Positions 3,864 through 28,864 of a stretch of DNA of 34,638 bases are shown here, piece after piece. The number at the start of each line of letters is the position of its first letter. The stretch's first letter is position 1. Source of the DNA: a virus; the IMG/VR virus record IMGVR_UViG_3300032069_000866, positions 1 through 34,638 of that record; one strand, written 5' to 3'. Position numbers and translations under genes: made by a program. The notes beneath the pieces are model-generated. The model saw only the letters and a program-made list of their open reading frames with translations, was not told the origin of the DNA and did not search any database.

Positions 3864-4676
3864 TCAGGCGCGCCTCGGCGCCATGTCGACGAAGACCATC
3901 TGGCTCAGCGGATAGCTGCCGGGCCGCACCGCGTCGAGCTGCATGGGAATCCACTTGCGCGGGCGCACGTTGCCCTCCCAGACGAAGGCAGTCTCGCCAT
4001 CGATGTGATCGAGCAGTGTCGTATGCTGACAGCCGGTCTTGCCTCCGAGCCGTAGCGCCAGGTCGCCGCGGCAGGGCTGCGCCATGAGGGCGTGCACCCG
4101 CTTCCCGCCCGCGCTGAAGCTGAAGGCGCGGGAAGGATGGATCAAGCGGCGGTGCTCATCCGCGTCGCGCGCGATCATGCTGCTGCTGTTCTTGTTGCTC
4201 CAGCGGATGATCGCGCCGAGCCCTAGGCGCTTGCAAGCCTGTGCGATGCACCACGTGCCGAAGCCGGCGCACCACTGGGCGGCCTGCCCCTCCCAGCCGA
4301 CATACTTCTTCACCCAGGGGCCGCGGTTGTTGCCGCCGATCTCGCGGGCGCCCGAGTAGGCCTCGGCGCGCGCGTAGACCATCGTGACCTCGCCGAGGTC
4401 CTTGAAGCGGCGACAGCCGAGCCAGGCCCACGTCTCGGGGCCGCAGGCGCCGTCGGCCTCGATGCCGGCGAGGATCTGGAAGGAGCGGGTGAGCGCCTTG
4501 ACGAACGGGGTGTAGATGGCGGGGACGGGGATTCCCTCGGCCAGCCAATCCTTCTCGGCGACGCCTTGGGCAGCGAGCAGACGGCTGAGGAGGCGCACCG
4601 CCCAGCCGGTGCTGCCTTCCTGAAGCGCTGGCGGGGCCTTGGGCAGTGAGAGAAGTTGCGCGATGGGGTCATACAT
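3864..4676 (-). CDS. Endolysin: peptidoglycan-binding domain plus CHAP-type amidase/peptidase
   Basis: A 270-residue lysis enzyme. Residues about 15-88 form a PG_binding_1 domain (LQEGSTGWAVRLL, ADGACGPETW). Residues about 105-240 form a CHAP-like papain-fold domain with GNNRGPWVKKYVG, the nucleophile Cys136 in WCAGF, His218 in CQHTT, and the acidic/amide site in WEGN (Glu234, Asn236). It should cleave peptide or amide bonds of the host cell wall from the cytoplasm once a holin opens the membrane, as it has no signal peptide. I chose ATG 4676 because AAGGAG precedes it and it overlaps the upstream stop by eight bases; an open extension to 4745 is out of keeping in composition. The holin-like and hydrolase genes upstream complete a lysis-type cluster. 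Confidence 0.85.
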   Translation of the reverse strand: MYDPIAQLLSLPKAPPALQEGSTGWAVRLLSRLLAAQGVAEKDWLAEGIPVPAIYTPFVKALTRSFQILAGIEADGACGPETWAWLGCRRFKDLGEVTMVYARAEAYSGAREIGGNNRGPWVKKYVGWEGQAAQWCAGFGTWCIAQACKRLGLGAIIRWSNKNSSSMIARDADEHRRLIHPSRAFSFSAGGKRVHALMAQPCRGDLALRLGGKTGCQHTTLLDHIDGETAFVWEGNVRPRKWIPMQLDAVRPGSYPLSQMVFVDMAPRRA

Positions 4677-5531: not shown

Positions 5532-5876
5532 CTACTCCCTTCCCAGCCGCGCCATCGCCTGCGCCAACATCGTGGTCAGCGCGTCGACCCGGTCGTGGAT
5601 TGCCCGCTGGCCCGTCGAGATGCGCTCCGCGAGTTGCAGGAGTTGCCCGCGGAACATTTCGCGGTCAGCACTGCGTATCCGCTCGTCATGCTTGAGCCAC
5701 TCGGGGTAGGCTTTCAGGCCGAGCCAAGCGAGGATCGCGATTGCCACGCCCTGGCTCACCGCCCAGACTACCCAGGCCGGTGCGGCGGCAGGCTGCACGG
5801 CGCCGTCGGCACTCGCCGCACCAAAGGCCGAGCATCCTATCGCCAGTCCGAGCAGTCCGAGATTGACCAGTTTCAC
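5532..5876 (-). CDS. Holin- or spanin-like membrane protein with C-terminal coiled coil
   Basis: A 114-residue protein starting at GTG 5876 behind a strong AAGGAGGAG. The first about 24 residues look like a signal peptide or membrane helix (LVNLGLLGLAIGC, a weak lipobox ending at Cys15). A second hydrophobic helix follows at about residues 34-53 (WVVWAVSQGVAIAILAWLGL). The rest is charged and helical, with heptad-like spacing (REMFRGQLLQLAERI, HDRVDALTTMLAQAM). That layout suits a phage holin with cytoplasmic tail, or a spanin-type envelope protein. It lies directly upstream of the two cysteine hydrolases, which supports a lysis role. Family assignment is not certain. Confidence 0.55.
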   Translation of the reverse strand: MKLVNLGLLGLAIGCSAFGAASADGAVQPAAAPAWVVWAVSQGVAIAILAWLGLKAYPEWLKHDERIRSADREMFRGQLLQLAERISTGQRAIHDRVDALTTMLAQAMARLGRE

Positions 5877-5889
5877 GTCGCTCCTCCTT

Positions 5890-7227
5890 CTACTCCGGCC
5901 ACCATTCGGCAGTCATATATTCCACGTCGATCTCCAGGGCGCGGTTCGCGTCGGTGTGCAGCGCGCCGTAGCCCGCGATGGTCACGCGCAGAGGCCCGGT
6001 CCAGCCGCTGACATCCACGAGCAACGTCACGTCGCTCCAACTCGTGGAAGGCGTTATCGCCACGCCCGTGCTGAGCGGCGTGCCTGCGGAGTCATGCACC
6101 GCGAGTTCAATCGCGTCGAAGTACGCCGCGTTGTTTACCTTGAGACGGGCCGAAACGCGCACGGTGTGACAAGCCGTCGTGCCGCCGTCACCGGGGAACA
6201 GTCGCGTTACCGCGCCGGCGACCACGTAGGATTGATTGCACTTCCCCGCGACGTAGAGACTCGTCCACGTGAAGGCGCAGTAGGAATCCGTCATAATTCC
6301 GGCGTCGCCGGAGGCGGCTGGTGTGTTGAAGGCACAGGTTTGAGTTGCCGTGACCGGCACGGCGGTGCCGCCGGCACCAGGCATTTTGCCGTAAGCCCAG
6401 CATTGAATACATCCTGCCGTCGCGTTCGCGCCGCCCGCCATCTGAAAGACCTGCTTACCCTGCGCGCAGAGGTCATGCACGGTGCCGGTGTCGGACTTCA
6501 TGTACTCGCGGCTGCCAGCGACTGGCGCAGGTCCGACGAACGCCCGCGCCTTGTCCGTGGGCGGCGACGCGGGTGTGCTCGACTGCTCGGCCAGGTCGGC
6601 CCAGGTCCCCAGTGCCGTGCGGGTGAACTTGCCGCCGTAGGCCACATTGTCGTTGCTGGCGATCTCGCCAGACACCCCGTAGCAGACGCCGTTGGCGGCG
6701 GTGCCTTCCCCTTTCACGCCGACTTCGGTAGTGCCGCTGGCGCTCGTCTGTCCATGTATGGCGAACGCCTGATCGGTGACGATCTGCACTTGGTCGTTCG
6801 CCGTCGCTGGGCTGAGCACTGTGCCGACTCGTTGCCAATAGTTCACCAGCGCCCCGAGCGCCGCGCCGATGGCCGCGAGGATCGTCTCAAGAACATGGCT
6901 GGCGAAGTGCGCAGCGGTATCGCGCACCCCCACCAGGTCCGCGCCACTCGGCGTACCGACGGCAGCCAATTCCGTCTCGGTCGGATAGCGCCCGTCATGA
7001 TCGGCATTCGTGGCGCTGGGCATGTCCCTCAACTCGGTGTGCGCCGCTTCCTGGCAACTCGTGTCCTCGCCCGGGCCGTCTCCGGGCATCGGGCTGGCGC
7101 CGAAATACGCCGCTGAGACTTCCGGCGCGGGCTCCCTGAGCTTCGCGTCGATACGCTCGTCCACCATGTCATGCAGCCCGGCGGTGAGGTGCGAGAGCGC
7201 CTGCCGTCGTAGGAATGGGTTAGCCAT
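5890..7227 (-). CDS. Tail fibre-like structural protein
   Basis: A 445-residue protein. The N-terminal about 60 residues are helical and charged and may attach to the tail. A helix (HFASHVLETILAAIGAALGA) follows near residue 110. The remainder is Gly/Ser/Thr/Ala-rich and beta-like, with features of fibre domains such as VGVKGEGTAANGVCYGVSGE. Seven or more cysteines in the C-terminal half are unusual for a fibre and may form a local cluster. The last about 110 residues look like a carbohydrate-binding-module-type jelly roll (VRVSARLKVNNAAYFDAIEL, SWSDVTLLVDVSGWTG). The start overlaps the hub gene stop by eight bases. Receptor binding is inferred from context and composition. Confidence 0.6.
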   Translation of the reverse strand: MANPFLRRQALSHLTAGLHDMVDERIDAKLREPAPEVSAAYFGASPMPGDGPGEDTSCQEAAHTELRDMPSATNADHDGRYPTETELAAVGTPSGADLVGVRDTAAHFASHVLETILAAIGAALGALVNYWQRVGTVLSPATANDQVQIVTDQAFAIHGQTSASGTTEVGVKGEGTAANGVCYGVSGEIASNDNVAYGGKFTRTALGTWADLAEQSSTPASPPTDKARAFVGPAPVAGSREYMKSDTGTVHDLCAQGKQVFQMAGGANATAGCIQCWAYGKMPGAGGTAVPVTATQTCAFNTPAASGDAGIMTDSYCAFTWTSLYVAGKCNQSYVVAGAVTRLFPGDGGTTACHTVRVSARLKVNNAAYFDAIELAVHDSAGTPLSTGVAITPSTSWSDVTLLVDVSGWTGPLRVTIAGYGALHTDANRALEIDVEYMTAEWWPE

Positions 7228-9316
7228 TGTCGAGCGCCTCCGCCAGGTAGTTGGCGCCGGAGATCTCCGCCCCCGTGTCCTTGAGCGTGAAGCTCTCGAC
7301 TAGGATCGATACCGTGGTGTTGTTCACCGCGTCGGCGATGATCACCGTCCATCCGCGCCGGATGCGCGGGTCGCAAACCGCCTCAAAGCTCACGCCGTCG
7401 AAGAGCCGCACGCTCTCGTCGAGCTCCCCCAGCGCCACGTCGCCCGCCAGCGTCTCCGGGTACTTGCTCCCGAGGTCGATGTACTTTGTGCGGTGGCGGC
7501 CGCCGAGCCGCGTCCAGAGGTCGGCGTGGTTGCGCTGCCACTGGTCGAGGCTGCCGTCGCCGTCCCAGTCGCGCGTGAACGTGTAGTACGTGGCGGGAGT
7601 GGCGTTGCCGTCGATCTCGTAGACGAGCCGGTAGGCGACCCGCGTGTTGATCGTGAGCTCGCTCAGTCCGATGCCCAGGCCGTGCGTGTCCACGACGGTG
7701 ATCTTGGCCGCCTGGCAGAGGACTTGGATGTACCGGCCGTAGCCGAAAACGATCTTGCTCTTCGGCACCTCGATCTGCGAGGACGGGGCATAACGGCCAT
7801 CCAGCGCCGGCGTGAGCATCTGCCAGGGGTCGGTAACGAGCTCGCGGACCATGAGCTTCAGCCCCGGCCAGAAGCCCGCGCGCAGCTCTGTCTGGTTGTT
7901 GCCCTGCGCGGCCCACTTGTTCTTGCTGCTCACCATCACCGCGTTCACGTACTCCACGTTCTGCGGCGCGAGCATGTCCACCTGCATCAGTTCATACCAG
8001 TGCACCGGGTCGTTGCCCGGCAAGTCGAAAGCCGTGAGGCAGGTGTTGCCGTCCCCGTCCCAGATGAACGGCGACTTATCCGCCCACGTCCCGCCCTCAT
8101 CGTCCAGGCCCCCCTGCCGGCTGCCCCACAGCACACCCGAGGCGAGCTCCGCGCCGACGGTGATCTCGACCTCCTTATCAGGGCCGCTCTGCGGCTGCGC
8201 CAGGATGTTGCGCGGGTACATGATGCTGCCGGTGGCCACCACGCGGCTGTACAGATCCCGCGTGCTGCGCACCAGCGCGACGCTCTTTGGGTGCACCAGC
8301 GTCGCGTCCTCGTTGCCGGCGGTCTTCTGTTCCATGAGCGCGCAGGTCCACTTCAGGGTCGCCGGCTCCCACCACAGCCGCAGATGTGGCGCCATGTCGC
8401 GCTGCACGTCGCGCAGCAGGTCGCCGCAGCGGCCCTCATAGCGCTTCGCTTGCGCCAGGTCCAGGCCCAGCCCGCCGCCGGGGAAGTCGATGTCGCCGTC
8501 CAGGGCGCCAATCCCGCCGCTGGCCTTGCTGCACTTCAGCGCCGCCTTGAGCAGCACCGTCACGTCGACGTCGGTCGCGCCCGTCGCGGCGGACTCCAGG
8601 TTGGCGTCCACATTGGAGAGGTAGTACGTGCGGCCGGTGGTGTCCTCCAGGATCGTCAGCGCCCCGGCGTTCCAGTCCACGCCCCAGTGCGTACTAGGCA
8701 CCCCCCCCTTGACGATTGGCGGGTCGGCCCCCGGCTCATCCACGCTGAGCAGGATGGCGCGCGGCGCCCAGGGCCGGCGCACCAGCTGCGTCGCCTGGTC
8801 GAATGCCGGGTCGATGCCGCCGCCGATCACCACGAAGCCGAAGATGTATGGCCCGAGCACGTCCGGATCGACCGGCGTCACCAGCCGGTAGGCGTCGTCC
8901 GCGACGATGGGCGTAGTGCTCGGTGCCAGCGCTACGGAGCAGTCGCACTCATCGAGCAGCACGTCCCAGTTGCTGGCCTGCAGGCTGAAGCCGAGGTCGG
9001 CAGGTTCGCAACTGTCGACACGCCCCTGGAACTTCACCTCGGTCTCGGCTCCGACATAGGCCGTCACGCGCGCCTCAGCGAAGAGTTGCGCGCGGTTCGT
9101 CTCGCTGCGCTCGTTGCTCAGTCCTTCCGCCCAGACGAGGCGGCAGCTGAGCGTGCTGGGTTTGTTATCCTGGTGCTCGATGCTGAGGCTGCCCGCCTCG
9201 TACTGGAACTCCAGCCAGGTATTGCTGCCGGTGAAATTGGTCTTGAGTTCCAACTTGAAAGCGGCGGTCTTCTCATACTTGAGAAGCTCGGTGTAGGCGG
9301 CGCCGGTGAATCCCAT
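7220..9316 (-). CDS. Putative tail hub/baseplate (tail-tip) protein
   Basis: A 698-residue protein immediately after the distal tail gene and before the fibre, the usual place of a hub or tail-associated protein. The N-terminus (FTGAAYTELLKYEKTAAFKL, then WLEFQYEAGSLSIEHQDNKP) and the segment FQGRVDSCEPADLGFSLQAS resemble the ring-forming domains of baseplate hub proteins, in which a short Ig- or OB-like region precedes elongated beta domains. The region near DWDGDGSLDQWQRN looks like a calcium-binding DxDxDG loop. No lysozyme or peptidase motif is seen. The long open frame on the opposite strand across this gene is a GC-skew shadow. Precise family not recognised. Confidence 0.6.
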   Translation of the reverse strand: MGFTGAAYTELLKYEKTAAFKLELKTNFTGSNTWLEFQYEAGSLSIEHQDNKPSTLSCRLVWAEGLSNERSETNRAQLFAEARVTAYVGAETEVKFQGRVDSCEPADLGFSLQASNWDVLLDECDCSVALAPSTTPIVADDAYRLVTPVDPDVLGPYIFGFVVIGGGIDPAFDQATQLVRRPWAPRAILLSVDEPGADPPIVKGGVPSTHWGVDWNAGALTILEDTTGRTYYLSNVDANLESAATGATDVDVTVLLKAALKCSKASGGIGALDGDIDFPGGGLGLDLAQAKRYEGRCGDLLRDVQRDMAPHLRLWWEPATLKWTCALMEQKTAGNEDATLVHPKSVALVRSTRDLYSRVVATGSIMYPRNILAQPQSGPDKEVEITVGAELASGVLWGSRQGGLDDEGGTWADKSPFIWDGDGNTCLTAFDLPGNDPVHWYELMQVDMLAPQNVEYVNAVMVSSKNKWAAQGNNQTELRAGFWPGLKLMVRELVTDPWQMLTPALDGRYAPSSQIEVPKSKIVFGYGRYIQVLCQAAKITVVDTHGLGIGLSELTINTRVAYRLVYEIDGNATPATYYTFTRDWDGDGSLDQWQRNHADLWTRLGGRHRTKYIDLGSKYPETLAGDVALGELDESVRLFDGVSFEAVCDPRIRRGWTVIIADAVNNTTVSILVESFTLKDTGAEISGANYLAEALDNG

Positions 9317-9884: not shown

Positions 9885-10030
9885 AGGTGACAGGTGACAG
9901 GTGACAGGTGACAGCAAAGCAGAAGCCCATCCACCTGTTCCCTGTTCCCTGTAACCTGTAATCTCTCTTCCTGTAACCTGTAACCTGTAACCTGTAACCT
10001 CTCTTCCTGTAACCTGTAACCTGTAACCTG
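9885..10030. repeat. Heptanucleotide arrays, two orientations (AGGTGAC and CCTGTAA)
   Basis: Four copies of AGGTGAC-type units at 9885-9914 are followed by CCTGTTC units (9932 onward) and two runs of CCTGTAA (9969-9997 and 10005-10030). The second set is close to the reverse complement of the first, so the DNA could fold into a long imperfect hairpin. The array fills the gap between the minor-tail gene at 9868 and the gene ending at 10035. No coding function is likely. Confidence 0.9.
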
Positions 10031-10751: not shown

Positions 10752-13700
10752 TCAGGTGGGGCCTTCGCACGGCTTCATCCAGAAGTACTGCGTCGTTCCG
10801 CCGCCCGTCAGGGCCGGCGCGGCTCCCAAGGCGGCATATCCTGGCGCGCCTATGCTCCCAACGGCCACGGGTTCCGTGCCCACCGCTCCCGGCGGAATGA
10901 TTGCCGGAGCCGTTCCCTGGATTGCCGCTGCTGCTGCTGCCGCCGCAGCCGCAATCTGCGCAGCGCTGATTTGGCCCGCGGCGTTCATCAACGCGCTCGC
11001 CGCGGCCTGCAGGCAGCCAGCGGCGCCCCTCAGATCAGTGGCGGCCACGACGAGTTGTTCCGCGGCGACGAGCTGCACCTCAACGGCGGTTATCGCCTGT
11101 TCGCCTTGCGCCGCCCAATACTCATAAGCGGGGCCGAGTGCTGCCTCCATCTCCTTGGCGTAGGGCGCCATGCCTTCCTGGGCTTTGAGGCCGGTGACCA
11201 TATCCACGAGGCCCTTCATGGCCTCCAGCCCTTGCGCTACCAGCTGGGCTTCTTGAACGACCGCGCCCGGCTCCCGCGCCGCGAGCGCCTTGGCGTTCTG
11301 CTCTCTATACCGTTCCAGGTCTTCGCGCGCCCGGTCCTGCCGCCGCATCTCCGCGTCGTACTCGATCCCCACCGCTTCCAGCGTCGCGCCTTTCATTCTG
11401 GCGTGACTGGCCCGCAGGCTGGAATATGCATCTTCCAGGCCGCGCAGCGCCCCCCGCAGGCTGTCGACCTGCGCTGCCAGAGCGTTGAAGCGCTCCTCGG
11501 CGGTCTTCATCGCCGCCTTCAGCCCCTCGATGTGCTCGGTGCTGACGAGTTCCTTGGATGCCGCTTCCATTTTCGCGAAGATTTCGGGGTATTTCTGCTG
11601 CAACGCGGTGAAGTCCTGCGCGCTCAGGCTGGTCTTCAGCTTCTCGTACAGGCCCGCGAGCGTCTGGCGGTATTGAGTCTCCGCCTCAGTTAGCCGCGCC
11701 TGGCTGAGCGTCCCCTGCTGCACCATCTCGCGGTAGACGGCGAGCTTGCGGGTCATTTGGTCTATTTCGTCCTTGGCCGCGGCGAAGGCCTGCATTGTGG
11801 GATCGGCGGCGAGGCCGGCGGCGGTGAGCGCCATGCCGGCGGCGAGCTTGCCGATGGGCGGGCGGTAGCCGAAGCCCCAGTATCCGATGCCGCGCTCGCC
11901 CGCGCCGAACTGGTCCTGGTAGCCGATGCGCCCGCCGGCTGCCGCGCCCGTGGCGATGGCGACGTGTTCCGGGCCCCCGAGTGGGCCAAGCTTCCTGGCG
12001 AACAGCACATCGGCGGGACCGGCTTCGCCCGGCTTGATCTTCTGCCAGCCCGCCTTCTTCATCCAGTTGACGAGCTGGCCCGTGTTCTGGAAGTCAGTGG
12101 GAACGTCAAAGCCCCAGGAACGGAGATAGGCGCTGGTCGTAGCCGCGCAGAGGTTGTCCACGCCTCCGACGACACCCTTCGCGATCTCGACCGCCGCGCC
12201 GGTCATACCGGGTGCTTGGATGTACTTAACCGCCGCCTCGCGATAGGCTGCCTCCTGCTCGGCGGCATAGACGGGCGCCGTTGCCGCCACTTGGGCGTCA
12301 TGCTCTGCGATAGACTCATAGGCACCGGCGGGCTGCGGCTCCGGCAAGACGAGGTTTCTTCGCTCCTGCAGCATCGCGTCGTAGGCATTCCTGACGCGCT
12401 TGGCGGCGGCGGGATCGATGCTCTCCAATTCGCCGATCGCTTCCGGGACGCCCGCCATCTGCCGGCGAAGAATGCGGTTCATTAAGTCGGCTTCGGCTTC
12501 TCCGCCCCGGGGGCCTGCTCTCTGGGGCCATCCGAACGAAACGCCAGGTTCACCCCTACGAAGATCTCTGATGGTCGCGACGAGCACGGCCAGTTCCGCC
12601 GTCACGGCGGCGATCGGAGCGAGGCTGGCTCCTATCCCTGCCAAGCTTCTGCCCAGCGCGCCGACGCCCGCGGCGGCGCCGGTGAAGTTCAGGCGCACCA
12701 GATTCCCGAAGATCTGCACCATGGCGGCGCCCGGTCCGACCACCCCATTCATCACCAGCCCCATCCTGAAGAGGGCGGGGATCACCCTCGTGTCGATGAT
12801 CACGGCAGCAGCCTTGCAGTAGAAGGCGACCTTGATCAGCCAATCCACGAGTCTGACTAAGCCGCTGGCCCCCACCAGAACCGCAAGGATAAGACCCAAC
12901 GCTTTCAGTCCGAAGGCGAGCTTGTTCACGCTCTCGGCCAGCGCCTCCGGGTGTTCCTTGAGACGGGCGGCCAGCTGCGCCAGCTTTCCCGTGCCCGCGG
13001 TGACCAACGGCTCCAGCAGATCGCCCAGCGCTTTCGCACCCGCCTTCAGGCCGGCCATGAACTCCGGATCGGCGGTGAGACTGGCGAGCGCCTCCCTAAC
13101 GCTCTTCAGTATCCTCTTCCACTGATCGTTCACCTCCTGTCCGATAAGCGCGAGTCCAGGAGTCAGCGTATTCTTGAGTTCCTGGAGCATGCCGGCGGCT
13201 TTAGCGCGGTTCAGCTCCGTGGCTCCCGCGAAGGTGTCCCGGAAGATCCTCAGGATGGCCTCGCCCATCTGCTTGCTGGCGGCCTCGGTCGTGATCCCCG
13301 CTTCCTTGATGACCTGGCCCGTCTCGTCGAACTGGACGCCGTACTCCTTCAGCTCTTGCTTGCTGATGCCGAACCTGAGGAGCATCGGCGCGCGCAGGGC
13401 GCCGGCCTTGGCGCGCTCGTAGAACTCGGCGACCTCCTGCATTAGCATCGGCTCCTCGGCTGTGCTGAGGGCCGAGACGACGTCGCTGAAGATCTTCCAT
13501 TTGTCCGTCAGCCCGCTTACGGCCTCGCCTTGGAGCAGCAGGTACTTCGTGGCGTTGCCGATGTCCTCGATCTTCAGTGGGGAGGTGGCAGCGAACTTCA
13601 GCAGCTCGGCGGTGAGCTTGTCGGCTTCGGCCTTGCTCTTGAGCAAGGTCTCGAAGCCGCGGGTGAGACTGTCGACGGTGCTCAGGGCCTTTAGGCCTTC

Positions 13701-13904
13701 CCGCGCCACCAGAATGAAGCCGCCGGCAAGAGCGCCAAAACCGATTCCGGCGATGCGCTGCAGGCCGCGCAGACCCTGGTCGAACTTCTGCAAGCCGTCA
13801 TGGACTTGCTTAAATCCAGCTTCCAGCTTCTTGAGCTCGCCGACGGCGCCGGAGGTGCTCCCCGTGATGGTGAGCTTGGCCGTGAGGTTGCCGGCTGGGC
13901 TCAT
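10752..13904 (-). CDS. Tape measure protein with embedded NlpC/CHAP-like hydrolase domain
   Basis: A 1050-residue protein that would set tail length and be ejected ahead of the DNA. The N-terminus (AKLTITGSTSGAVGELKKLE, then GLQRIAGIGFGALAGGFILV) and long Ala-rich helices are typical. Hydrophobic helices follow at residues about 325-360 and 410-450. Residues about 580-690 form a papain-fold cell-wall hydrolase, with Cys in NLCAATTSAYL and His in PEHVAIATG, for local peptidoglycan opening. Residues about 720-900 are coiled coil. The C-terminus is poly-Ala, then a Pro/Gly-rich end. The ATG overlaps by four bases the stop of the upstream frame-shifted chaperone. It ends at a TGA after which the frame stays open into the next gene. 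Confidence 0.85.
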   Translation of the reverse strand: MSPAGNLTAKLTITGSTSGAVGELKKLEAGFKQVHDGLQKFDQGLRGLQRIAGIGFGALAGGFILVAREGLKALSTVDSLTRGFETLLKSKAEADKLTAELLKFAATSPLKIEDIGNATKYLLLQGEAVSGLTDKWKIFSDVVSALSTAEEPMLMQEVAEFYERAKAGALRAPMLLRFGISKQELKEYGVQFDETGQVIKEAGITTEAASKQMGEAILRIFRDTFAGATELNRAKAAGMLQELKNTLTPGLALIGQEVNDQWKRILKSVREALASLTADPEFMAGLKAGAKALGDLLEPLVTAGTGKLAQLAARLKEHPEALAESVNKLAFGLKALGLILAVLVGASGLVRLVDWLIKVAFYCKAAAVIIDTRVIPALFRMGLVMNGVVGPGAAMVQIFGNLVRLNFTGAAAGVGALGRSLAGIGASLAPIAAVTAELAVLVATIRDLRRGEPGVSFGWPQRAGPRGGEAEADLMNRILRRQMAGVPEAIGELESIDPAAAKRVRNAYDAMLQERRNLVLPEPQPAGAYESIAEHDAQVAATAPVYAAEQEAAYREAAVKYIQAPGMTGAAVEIAKGVVGGVDNLCAATTSAYLRSWGFDVPTDFQNTGQLVNWMKKAGWQKIKPGEAGPADVLFARKLGPLGGPEHVAIATGAAAGGRIGYQDQFGAGERGIGYWGFGYRPPIGKLAAGMALTAAGLAADPTMQAFAAAKDEIDQMTRKLAVYREMVQQGTLSQARLTEAETQYRQTLAGLYEKLKTSLSAQDFTALQQKYPEIFAKMEAASKELVSTEHIEGLKAAMKTAEERFNALAAQVDSLRGALRGLEDAYSSLRASHARMKGATLEAVGIEYDAEMRRQDRAREDLERYREQNAKALAAREPGAVVQEAQLVAQGLEAMKGLVDMVTGLKAQEGMAPYAKEMEAALGPAYEYWAAQGEQAITAVEVQLVAAEQLVVAATDLRGAAGCLQAAASALMNAAGQISAAQIAAAAAAAAAAIQGTAPAIIPPGAVGTEPVAVGSIGAPGYAALGAAPALTGGGTTQYFWMKPCEGPT

Positions 13905-14739
13905 TGCTCGCCCTCCCCCGCTTCACTGTAACCTGTCCCCTGTAACCCGTCGCCCTCTTGACTCAGGAATCTTTCGCCGCGTGGATGGTCCAGCGGGTAA
14001 TGCCAGCAGTCGAGCTCGGTGCGCAGCTCCGCCTCCACATCGGCGAGCCCGCTGCACCACTCGCACTCGCTCTTGCCGTTATCGTCCTGACCCGGGAGGG
14101 GCGGATTGGCATAGAACGAGTCGAGCTGCTCCTGCAGGGCTGTCACCGTCCGGCTGTGTTCGATCACGGCCATGCAGATCAGCATCTCCTCATGGCAGAG
14201 GGCCCTGGCCTGCTCGACGCCTCCCAGGGCGCCTGCCAACTCGACGAGCACTTCATGCAGGGCGGGCGGGTGCGAGGGAAGCTCGACTACTGGACGTCCG
14301 GCTTCGAGGGCTCGCTCCCGTCCGCGTTCGGCTTGCTCTGAAAGCCTGCCAGCGCGCCTTTCAGCGCGCCGGCGAAAAAACCGATGACCGCCTTCAGGTC
14401 CTGGATGTTGACTTGGAGGGCCAGAGCGGCGAGCTGCGCACCCTGGTCCCAGTCCAAGTCCAGTTTCTCAAGTTCGGCATAGCTGAGCCTCGTGCTGACG
14501 CAGGAGAGCCGGATCAGGAAGCTCGCCGAGCTCCTGAGCAGCGGGGCCGCACTGACCTCCGGGCTTTCCTCGCGGAACGCCTGGATGATTGCGTTCACGC
14601 TGACATCGAGCGTCTCCATGAGCTCGGGGAGCTTCATCCACGGCACCTTGCGGACGGTGAGGCCGAAGACCTGGGGCGGCTCGTAGGCCGCGATGGCGCT
14701 GCTCGCCTCGCCGATGCTGTTGATCTCGGTCTCGCTCAT
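13901..14739 (-). CDS. Tail assembly chaperone, -1 frameshift product (lambda GT-like)
   Basis: Predicted fusion of 279 residues: 122 from the upstream chaperone frame, then 157 read in the -1 frame after slipping at U UUU UUC (14380-14374). The -1 frame has no stop from 14374 to the TGA at 13903-13901. The extension is highly Arg/Glu-rich at first, then contains a Cys cluster (CEWCSGL, LDCWHYP) that could bind metal. In lambda and many siphoviruses such a longer chaperone is made in small amounts and, with the short form, loads the tape measure before tail tube assembly. The fusion ends four bases into the tape measure gene, the exact arrangement expected. An independent start at GTG 14251 is possible but lacks support. 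Confidence 0.8.
13924..13950. repeat. Short heptanucleotide array (CTGTAAC type)
   Basis: Imperfect units of CTGTAAC and CTGTCCC at the very end of the frame-shifted chaperone gene, just before the tape measure start. The last residues of the chaperone (GLQGTGYSEAG) are encoded by it, so those residues are probably not conserved. It is the same unit type as the array at 9969-10030. Confidence 0.7.
14287..14739 (-). CDS. Tail assembly chaperone, short form (lambda G-like)
   Basis: A 150-residue protein, starting at ATG 14739 with AGGAGCAGGAG upstream. It is helical and acidic, with a hydrophobic core (KLPELMETLDVSVNAIIQAF) and a Gly/Ala/Lys C-terminus (FFAGALKGALAGFQSK). Length, place between tail tube and tape measure, and the slippery site within its last 30 codons all fit the G-type tail chaperone, which binds the tape measure protein and helps recruit tube subunits. 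Sequence similarity to lambda G is not claimed. An open stretch upstream to 14790 is heptanucleotide repeat (CQLSAEPGAG) and unlikely to be translated. Confidence 0.8.
   Translation of the reverse strand: MSETEINSIGEASSAIAAYEPPQVFGLTVRKVPWMKLPELMETLDVSVNAIIQAFREESPEVSAAPLLRSSASFLIRLSCVSTRLSYAELEKLDLDWDQGAQLAALALQVNIQDLKAVIGFFAGALKGALAGFQSKPNADGSEPSKPDVQ
14348..14380 (-). promoter_or_regulatory. Programmed -1 ribosomal frameshift signal
   Basis: On the minus strand the zero-frame codons GGT TTT TTC contain the canonical heptamer T TTT TTC (14380-14374). Immediately after it, GCCGGCGCGCT and GGCGCGCTGGC can pair as an 11-bp stem with two G-U wobbles around a GAAA tetraloop (14373-14348). The stem starts with no spacer, so only its inner part may act when the ribosome is on the heptamer. 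Both elements plus the open -1 frame make a strong case for programmed frameshifting. Confidence 0.85.
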
Positions 14740-14762: not shown

Positions 14763-14793
14763 CTGACAACTGACAACTGGCAACTGGCAACTG
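14763..14793. repeat. Heptanucleotide array (CAACTGG/CAACTGA)
   Basis: Four and a half consecutive 7-bp units (CAACTGA, CAACTGG, CAACTGG, CAACTG) in the short gap between the tail tube gene and the G-like chaperone. It lies upstream of the chaperone ribosome binding site, so it does not seem to set translation start. Confidence 0.9.
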
Positions 14794-14800
14794 CCTCGCC

Positions 14801-16117
14801 CTAGACGCCCGCCGAGATATCGCTGCCGTAGAAGTTGAGGGCGCTCTTGAACTCCGGGCTGAACGCGGTGAAGCTGCCGATGGCGCCCTTGGTCAGGTTG
14901 AAGTTGGCAGGCAGGGTCACCTGTTTCGCGGTGTGGAAGCGGCGACCCGGCGCGGTGAGCAGGTCGTCGGGCAGCCGGCTGAAGTCCAGCTCCCAGAAGT
15001 CGATGATGCCGCCGACGGGCCTGCGGGCGTTGGCGTCCGCGACGTTGCCATGGAGGTTGTACAGTCTCACCGGCAAGAGGCGCTCACTGCTGGCGGCGGC
15101 GCCGAAGGGCTGCACGATGCTGGGGCTGAAGACGGCCCACGTGTTCACCCGGAAGCCCTTGCCGGAATGGCTCGCAGCTCCGGTTGCGGTGAGCGCGATG
15201 CTGCCCGTCGCCTTATCCCAGGTGTAGTCCGTCCCTGACGTCAGCACGTTGTACGTGCGGGTGCTGGTGACGATGCTGATGTGCTCCAGGTTCACTAGGT
15301 CGGCGAGCGCCGGTATGGTGCCGAACACATCGCTACCGGGACCGGCGAACGTGACCTCGCTCAAGCTGCTCTCCACTATGGCCGCGAGCTTGGCGCCGGC
15401 ATCCGTGATGTCGTCAGGACCCGCGAGTGCGCTCACGACCACGGCGAAATGCGTCGATCTGGGCTGCAGCGCAGTCGGGATGGGCGGCGTCCAGGCCACG
15501 TTCATGCCCTTAGATCCGGTCGCGGTGATCGGCGCGCTCGCACTCGGGGTGCCGTAGATGAATTGTCGGCCGCGCTTTTGCGTCGCGCCGAAAGGCAGCG
15601 CCAGGCTCAGGCCGCGGTGCTCGTCGGTGTCGGCGTAGACAGGGACCACCCAGACGTGGTAAGCGCCCGCGCCGAACGTGCCGGTGCCGCTTTCGGTGGG
15701 CGTGACGGCGGTCGGCACGGGGAAGACCTCGCTGAAGACCTGGGGCAGGCCGTAGGGCGTGATGTTGTAGTACTTCTCGGTCTGCTTGAGGCGCAGGATG
15801 TTGGCCGTCCGGCGCATCCGCGAAGAAATGTCCAGCGTCTGCGCCAGGCCCTGGCCGACGAAGAGGTCCTGGGCCAGCGGGCCCATGATCTCCTTGAGGC
15901 TGAACTGCACGGTGGCGCTGACTTTGCTCACCTCGCGGTCCACGACCTGGCTCTGGCCCATGATGACGTGCTCGAGGGTATCGTCCTCCATCGTGAAGCG
16001 GGCGTTCACGGCTTCCGTCTCGCCGAAGATCAGCTCGCCGTCGGTGAGTGGGATCGCGACGCGGCACTCGCCCCGGAAGACGAAGTCCTTGTCGAGCAGT
16101 TGATTGGATTGGCTCAT
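14801..16117 (-). CDS. Major tail tube protein with FN3/Ig-like insertion
   Basis: A 438-residue protein directly upstream of the tail chaperones, the usual place for the tail tube subunit of long-tailed phages. N-terminal residues about 1-140 (FRGECRVAIPLTDGELIF, EHVIMGQSQVVDREVSKVSA, FSLKEIMGPLAQDLFVGQ) and C-terminal residues about 290-438 look like a split tube fold with long beta strands. Between them, residues about 150-250 (GAYHVWVVPVYADTDEHRG, MNVAWTPPIPTALQPRSTHF) read as a fibronectin type III-like domain, likely displayed outside the tail. AGGAGG precedes the ATG. No contractile sheath gene is visible next to it, which favours a siphovirus. The tube role rests on position and fold pattern. 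Confidence 0.75.
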   Translation of the reverse strand: MSQSNQLLDKDFVFRGECRVAIPLTDGELIFGETEAVNARFTMEDDTLEHVIMGQSQVVDREVSKVSATVQFSLKEIMGPLAQDLFVGQGLAQTLDISSRMRRTANILRLKQTEKYYNITPYGLPQVFSEVFPVPTAVTPTESGTGTFGAGAYHVWVVPVYADTDEHRGLSLALPFGATQKRGRQFIYGTPSASAPITATGSKGMNVAWTPPIPTALQPRSTHFAVVVSALAGPDDITDAGAKLAAIVESSLSEVTFAGPGSDVFGTIPALADLVNLEHISIVTSTRTYNVLTSGTDYTWDKATGSIALTATGAASHSGKGFRVNTWAVFSPSIVQPFGAAASSERLLPVRLYNLHGNVADANARRPVGGIIDFWELDFSRLPDDLLTAPGRRFHTAKQVTLPANFNLTKGAIGSFTAFSPEFKSALNFYGSDISAGV

Positions 16118-25787: not shown

Positions 25788-27391
25788 TCCTCCCCGATCC
25801 CGGCGCTCGCGCGCTCCACGCCGCTCGTCTCCGGCGCGCCGGCGGGATGGCGGTGCTCCAGGGCATCCTCGCAGGCCCCGCTCACGGCGTCGAGCAGATC
25901 GTCGTTGCGCCCCAGCGGGTACGTCTCCGCCTCATCGATGAGCGCCTGCTGAGTCGCATCTTCGAGATTGAACTTCACCTTGTCGTTGCCGACCAGGATG
26001 GCCCAGCTCTCCATGCGCTCGTGCTTGCCGCGCGTGCTGTTCACCGGCTCGACGCGCATCGCCCGTTCCTCCAGCACGCCCTGCGCCAGCCATACCTGGC
26101 AGGCGTTGCTCTCGATCCTCTGCTTCAGTGGGCGCCAGTCGTCGTATTCCTGATGGCAGGCGTCCACCTGCGCCCGGTAGGGGCCACGCAAGCGGTAGAG
26201 ACCGAGCAGGTACATCACCTCCGTGCGCGGGTCGATGCCGATGGTGGCGATCGCGCACCAGTCATTCGCATCCTGTTTCGCCCCTCCGGTGGGATCCACG
26301 CGCTGGACTACCAGCAGCCGCGCGCCGTTGTACTCCGTCCCGCCGTCGCTCGTGCGCGCCAGCAAGGCCCGGTTGTATCCGTTGCGCGTGAACTGCTCGC
26401 GGAAGAAGATGCGGTCGCTCTCCGCTTGCGGCTTCAGCAGCCGCTCGATGGCGTAGGCGCGCGGGCCATGCTCCCTTTCCAGCCGGCGGCATTCCTCGAA
26501 CGGGAACATCTCGGGCCAGTTCGGCTTCTGCTCGCTGTTCTCGACTGGTACCTCCGGCCCTTCCCAGCCCTTGCCATCTGGCGGCGGCTTGCGCAGCCAG
26601 CTCAGCAGGCAGTCATGGGAGAGATAGGTGCCGAGGAAGACCATCGAGGCGCCGGGTCCGAGACTGCCGATCACGTCCTCCTCGATCCACTGCCGCGCGT
26701 TGCGCATCTGTTCAGGCGAGCGCGCCATCTTGCGCGTCTGCGCGTCGTCGAGGATCACCAGGTCCGGGCGGTACCCCTCATAGGACTGTCCGCGGATGTT
26801 GCCCCCTAGCGGCATGCCCGCGATGCGGCAGCCGTTGCTCAGGATCACTTCCTTGTCGGTGTATGAGACCCATTGCCCCTTTTTGTCGCGCGCCGGCTTG
26901 AGGCCGGGGTAGTCCGCCATGAGACGGTCGTTCAACTCCAGCTCGCGTGTGACGTTCCGGACGCGCGTGAGGTATTCCTTCTCCTCGCTGGGCGCGCCGA
27001 TCACGACGATGTTGCGCCGCTGCTCCGTCGCCGCCGCATACAGAGATAGGATCTCCGTCCCGTAGGTGCTCTTCGCGAAGAGCCGGGCATAGGCTCCGGC
27101 CATCTGCGCGTTGGCGGTCGAAACCGCCCCGTAGAGCCGCGCCGTGAGCTCGTGGTGGAACCATGCCGGCGGCACGAAGAGCTTCAGCCGGTCATTCTGG
27201 CGGACCATGCGATGCTGGAAATACGTCAGCGCGAACCGCATCAGCGGGTCCCGCGCCATCTCGATGCGCGCCAGGTATGCCGCGCGCTCGAGCCGCTGCA
27301 GGTTCTCCCGCACCTCGACGTGGACCTGCGTCCGCATCTTTTCACCCGCAACTGGCAACTGGCAACCGGCAACTGCGCCCTTCTCAGGCAT
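25781..27391 (-). CDS. terL: Terminase large subunit
   Basis: A 536-residue packaging motor. The ATPase part shows an atypical Walker A around residues 103-110 (RLFAKSTYG), a Walker B DLVILDD (residues 210-216) and coupling motif FLGTYLSHD. The C-terminal nuclease part has [10 protein letters not shown] with Asp366 and Asp374 and a late GRNDDLLDA. It would cut concatemers and pump DNA through the portal. ATG 27391 overlaps the putative small-terminase stop and has GAGGTGG in place. The first 18 residues are encoded by a heptanucleotide array, so an inner ATG at 27337 (MRTQVHVEV) might be the ancestral start. Order TerS, TerL, methyltransferase, portal is normal for a packaging module. Confidence 0.92.
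27348..27375. repeat. Heptanucleotide array (GCAACTG)
   Basis: Four exact-period units GCAACTG, GCAACTG, GCAACCG, GCAACTG inside the first codons of the large terminase (reading [10 protein letters not shown]). Same unit as the arrays at 14763, 28819 and 33350. Confidence 0.9.
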
Positions 27392-28555: not shown

Positions 28556-28864
28556 TCAAGGCTGGAAGTCGGCCTGAAGGCTCAGCACTCGGTGCATCCA
28601 GTATTGGCAGCTACGCTCGGAGGGTGCCCAGGGGCCATGCTGCTCCTTCAGCGCCCTAGCGATCTGCGCCGCCGTGCAGTCGCGGTTGAAGCGGTCGGCA
28701 TAGATCTCATATACCGCCAGCAGCCGCTCGTCCCGCCGCGCCAGCTCCCGCCGCAGCGCCACGTCCCATTCCGGCAGCTTGCGGCCGCCGGGCCTCAGGT
28801 AGTCGTCAGCGGCGGCGCCTGGCAACTGGCAACTGGCAACCGGTAACTGGTTCTTCTGCCTCAT
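28556..28864 (-). CDS. Small HTH-like protein, possible regulator or packaging protein
   Basis: A 102-residue protein starting at ATG 28864 with GAGGAGCG upstream. Residues about 3-18 ([16 protein letters not shown]) are translated heptanucleotide repeat and look like an insertion. The rest is helical and charged (WDVALRRELARRDERLLAVY) and ends with CTAAQIARALKEQHGP, a sequence with the spacing of a helix-turn-helix recognition region. It may be a transcription regulator, or the true DNA-binding small terminase given its place upstream of the packaging genes. A sharp AT-rich regulatory stretch lies just upstream. I do not recognise a family. Confidence 0.65.
   Translation of the reverse strand: MRQKNQLPVASCQLPGAAADDYLRPGGRKLPEWDVALRRELARRDERLLAVYEIYADRFNRDCTAAQIARALKEQHGPWAPSERSCQYWMHRVLSLQADFQP
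28819..28850. repeat. Heptanucleotide array (CTGGCAA)
   Basis: Units CTGGCAA, CTGGCAA, CTGGCAA, CCGGTAA, CTGG within the first codons of the HTH-like gene, with the same unit as at 27348 and 14763. Confidence 0.9.

Follow-up and report, generated by a model that had tools for sequence, protein, structure and literature searches.

In this study, we report that the tail assembly chaperone gene of a probable siphovirus is very likely expressed by a programmed -1 frameshift of the lambda G/GT type, slippage and its efficiency being what we infer. The gene lies on the minus strand of the window, i.e. the whole 34,638-bp stretch of viral DNA that was analysed. This reading is well supported by conservation of the slippery heptamer, frame-specific selection, gene order, the second frame's lack of a ribosome binding site, and the occurrence of an identical slip site in Pseudomonas phages annotated with a gpG/gpGT pair. 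The case belongs to the known lambda G/GT class, and frameshifting is ordinary for tail chaperones. Its value is that the annotation of a 279-residue fusion is settled in a phage lineage whose chaperone escapes profile libraries.

Inspection of the sequence placed the minus-strand heptamer T_TTT_TTC at positions 14380-14374, in the zero-frame codons GGT TTT TTC, exactly as the first-pass annotation had described it. It forms codons 121-122 of a 150-aa open reading frame that runs on the minus strand from the ATG at 14739 to the TAG at 14287. The -1 frame continues uninterrupted from the CGC at 14374 to a TGA at 13903-13901, which overlaps the tape measure ATG at 13904-13902. This extension (13901-14374, minus strand) comprises 157 codons and the TGA, giving a predicted fusion of 122 + 157 = 279 aa; the open frame, the overlap with the tape measure start and the fusion length claimed earlier were thus all reproduced. 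The T6 run of the heptamer is the sole A or T homopolymer of at least six in the 34,638 bp, both strands counted, and the codons at the slip site are rare in the record (TTT, 8% of Phe codons; GGT, 7% of Gly codons). Since the record, at 66% GC, holds many long out-of-frame open reading frames, the open -1 frame on its own proves little.

Profile matches identified the record as a virus contig with Mu-type head genes (Portal_Mu, Mu F and Mu gpT), which also encodes a tail-completion protein, a terminase, a DNA primase and a DNA methyltransferase, and carries a tyrosine-type integrase fragment at the contig edge. Since the proteins scanned include a tape measure but gave no match to a sheath protein, the phage is probably a siphovirus. 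The frame pair is located between a probable major tail protein (14801-16117, minus strand; weak match, E 2.4e-4, to phrog_807, major tail protein with Ig-like domain) and a tape measure protein of 1050 aa (10752-13904, minus strand; phrog_58, E 9.4e-7), a gene order as in the lambda G/GT type. Searches with Pfam and PHROGs profiles gave no credible match of the zero-frame product (G) or the -1 extension (T) to known tail chaperone families, and the Rfam and tRNA scans were empty. AlphaFold models built from two-sequence alignments (pLDDT 50 for G and 58 for T) were too poor for fold searches, G being predicted with low confidence as mostly helical. Because G and T lack detectable homology to known chaperones, we infer the chaperone label from position, size and frame arrangement.

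Relatives were sought in viral records with protein and alignment queries and with a DNA pattern, and the only one recovered for G, T, the major tail protein and the tape measure was contig IMGVR_UViG_3300032053_000201. Searches of viral records with the head proteins yielded head relatives only, the phage collections contained no match to G, the major tail protein or the tape measure, and the plasmid collection gave no match to the major tail protein, the only query used there. The heptamer is identical in this relative and is located within a 40-nt identical block, in a gene whose upstream part has a dS of about 0.6. Identity to the relative is 87% for the major tail protein, 68% for G and 86% for the -1 frame. 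Beyond the zero-frame stop (108 gap-free codons), omega is 0.12 in the -1 frame and 5.4 and 3.0 in the other two frames, both of which carry stops; in the overlap region, the zero frame has an omega of 1.05 as against 0.33 for the -1 frame. Coding constraint changes frame at the slip site, and this substitution pattern makes the -1 frame convincing as coding sequence. The sequence results named beforehand as contrary to a frameshift, stops in the -1 frame before 14251 and loss of the heptamer, did not occur. A Cys cluster had also been pointed out in the fusion, and all five Cys of the T part (13901-14374), in LCHEEMLIC, CEWC and DCWH, are invariant in the relative; they may bind a metal.

The same comparison bears on a rival reading with no frameshift, in which the second frame would be a gene of its own, translated from its first possible start, the GTG at 14251, perhaps by ribosomes that reinitiate past the zero-frame stop at 14287. 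The GTG does open a 116-codon open reading frame 36 nt past that stop, but it has no Shine-Dalgarno sequence, its anti-Shine-Dalgarno pairing being +0.4 kcal/mol against -6.9 to -12.0 kcal/mol in the six genes used for comparison. Moreover, the -1 frame is constrained upstream of the GTG, in the overlap, and the heptamer in both phages would have to be a coincidence. Between the zero-frame stop and the GTG, the 12 codons differ from the relative by one change in 36 nt. An independent start at this GTG was rejected, as it has no ribosome binding site and lies downstream of sequence already under constraint, and we consider an independent gene highly improbable. Frameshifting is the simple explanation for the frame-specific selection, the conserved heptamer, the missing Shine-Dalgarno sequence and the constraint upstream of the GTG taken together. 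It is equally hard to credit that the fusion comes from slippage of RNA polymerase, instead of the ribosome, on the T6 run. The run is present and conserved, but its phase fits X_XXY_YYZ tandem tRNA slippage exactly, and a heteropolymeric C_CCT_TTC occupies the same place in other Mu-headed siphophages. A run of six is also short for slippage by bacterial RNA polymerase.

The heptamer of lambda, G_GGA_AAG, differs from that of the window phage, and profile searches found no sequence similarity between the two systems. The lambda G/GT logic that the first-pass annotation had seen in the two frames is well supported by heptamer conservation, frame-specific selection and gene order. In lambda, where G lies between the major tail and tape measure genes, a -1 shift close to its end produces abundant G and scarce G-T; both proteins cover the tape measure, and the major tail protein is brought in by T (PMC5009743). 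In the ribosomal frameshift that we propose here, most ribosomes would make the 150-residue G-like protein. On U_UUU_UUC, the tRNA-Phe on UUU in the P site and on UUC in the A site would slip back by one base to UUU UUU, and a minority of ribosomes would make the 279-residue G-T fusion, whose C-terminal part is encoded in the -1 frame only. In E. coli, UUY codons in the A site are prone to shifting (PMC4066793). If the proteins act as gpG and gpGT do in lambda, the tape measure would be covered by many copies of G and few of G-T, and the T part would recruit the major tail subunit.

Two further elements were considered. Phage Mu has related head genes and a chaperone frameshift before its tape measure, but it shifts by -2 (PMC5009743); in the window phage and its relative alike, the +1/-2 frame is closed three codons past the site, which rejects a Mu-type shift. 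The other was an upstream stimulator, taken as a Shine-Dalgarno-like sequence 6-17 nt upstream of the heptamer. The sequence AAGGCGGT lies upstream of the heptamer and is kept in the relative, but the pairing of its 22-nt stretch (-7.9 kcal/mol) is not clearly above background, 7% of positions pairing as well.

Mu-headed phages were reached through a related major head protein, and their loci were surveyed mechanically for in-frame heptamers, a survey that includes chance hits and gives a picture, not a count. Many of these loci have a slippery heptamer with a -1 frame leading into a long open reading frame, mostly at A_AAA_AAG and A_AAT_TTG. The Pseudomonas Casadabanviruses Cline, JBD24, MP48, LPB1 and JBDs5 have the codons GGT TTT TTC in the corresponding position, with the same GGTTTTTTC as the window phage, and a -1 frame that reaches the tape measure; the records of LPB1 and MP48 already annotate a -1 frameshift or gpGT. 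These phages resemble the window phage in having Mu-type head genes, a major tail protein of the Ig-like type, the slip codons after about 120 codons and a -1 frame that extends to the tape measure start. They differ in that their G and T proteins are not detectably homologous to those of the window phage (hhalign comparisons were not significant), the T part is 85-86 codons long as against 157, and the site has no strong hairpin. Casadabanviruses are transposable phages, whereas the window phage has the fragment of a tyrosine integrase. Stenotrophomonas phage Bhz63 also has the slip site T_TTT_TTC. In the Beetreviruses B3 and JBD67, the -1 frame of the chaperone can be reached at the same position, but through a different heptamer, C_CCT_TTC, and the second frame is not annotated as a fusion in their records. 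The slip site GGUUUUUUC therefore turns up again in chaperone genes of Mu-headed siphophages whose proteins there show no detectable similarity to those studied here, and the site can guide to the gene better than protein similarity.

Two side observations concern records of other phages. Those of Cline (site at 12680-12686) and JBD24 (3324) annotate the zero-frame chaperone only, leaving out the -1 extension that runs up to the tape measure start. The second concerns the siphovirus-like contig IMGVR_UViG_3300048577_000011, retrieved with a DNA pattern derived from the slip site of the window itself, in which VIGFF is encoded with a GGTTTTTTC / GTCATCGGTTTTTTCGCC slip site at 7937 and the -1 frame ends 4 nt before a 740-codon open reading frame; no similarity was detected between its proteins and those of the window.

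The first-pass annotation had called the site textbook and had described a hairpin that follows it. An 11-bp stem with two wobbles (G-U and U-G) and a GAAA tetraloop was indeed found directly 3' of the heptamer (14373-14348, minus strand), with the spacer of 0 nt that had been remarked upon. By stability, this 26-nt stem (-22.6 kcal/mol) is among the top 0.02% of all 26-mers in the record. When the nine residues encoded there are recoded synonymously, 1.2% of the variants fold as stably as the native sequence, the 27-nt stretch having -24.3 kcal/mol against a mean of -15.7 kcal/mol for the variants. The stability is due in part to the encoded peptide repeat AGALKGALA, which gives a direct repeat of GGCGCGCTG with a self-complementary core.

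These figures favour the hairpin as a genuine stimulator of a real frameshift, pausing ribosomes at the heptamer or acting at the mRNA entrance through its upper half once the lower half has melted. Published stimulators usually start 5-9 nt after the heptamer (PMC5009743; PMC4066793), and the published rule places the stem start 4-10 nt after the motif (PMC4066793). The hairpin falls outside this rule as it stands, but the residual stem could qualify: once the first 4-5 nt have melted, 6-7 pairs rich in G+C are left (-9.0 to -12.4 kcal/mol). In the gap-free alignment with the relative, however, four of the 11 pairs are lost, namely 1-26 (G/G), 2-25 (C/A), 5-22 (A/C) and 10-17 (C/A), and none is compensated. 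What is left is one uninterrupted run of four pairs, and the 26-nt fold of the relative has an average value of -6.5 kcal/mol. Two G-to-A changes in the relative's stem turn Gly into Asp in the zero frame and keep Arg in the -1 frame, where they are silent, so coding accounts for them. Nor does such a stem follow the identical slip site of the Casadabanviruses, whose downstream folds are weak (-7.5 to -12.0 kcal/mol over 33 nt). The hairpin was therefore rejected as a conserved stimulator, and of the textbook description the slip site and the two-frame logic stand while the hairpin does not. It is probably either incidental or a modifier confined to this lineage; the latter is possible because the G+C-rich stem of 6-7 bp would outlast melting of the first 4-5 nt, and a genuine stimulatory role in the window phage is unlikely. 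A striking hairpin beside a slip site can thus fail in the nearest relative, which calls for caution.

A different stimulator could be a longer stem common to both phages, which starts 3-7 nt after the heptamer and closes about 60 nt downstream (candidate at 14309-14370, minus strand). In the RNAalifold consensus fold of the two sequences, 18 pairs are intact in both, among them two changed on both sides (G-C to A-U) and one with a G-U change. The stem starts 3 nt past the heptamer; when 7 nt are masked to mimic the ribosome, it starts 7 nt past it, and both sequences form the same outer stem (-21.6 and -20.0 kcal/mol). Other mask lengths give different folds, though, and the energy alone is ordinary, 17-28% of controls being as low; energy together with two compensations is matched by 1.6% of column shuffles and by 0.3-0.5% of real aligned windows. 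As it comes from two sequences and a post-hoc choice, this stem with its compensatory pairs is suggestive and a lead only, and we regard it as an improbable stimulator. More doubtful still is the idea that the flush hairpin and the longer stem are mutually exclusive and that the bases covered by the ribosome choose between them, which would set the fusion ratio; we know of no description of such a fold choice for tail chaperones.

Some further differences between the two phages, and features common to them, were observed. The centre of the tape measure (about residues 420-670) could not be aligned between the window (10752-13904) and the relative (5821-8949), and both ends are 86% identical, a pattern that suggests a cassette swap. 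Clusters of short tandem units (CTGTAACC, GGTGACAG, CTGGCAAC/CTGACAAC) are located in intergenic gaps or reach gene ends in both phages, at 9886-10029, 13926-13948, 14763-14792, 27352-27367 and 28819-28841 in the window and at 4063, 14863 and 15691 in the relative IMGVR_UViG_3300032053_000201. One of these clusters occupies the gap that separates G from the major tail protein gene, and another is found at the end of the -1 frame.
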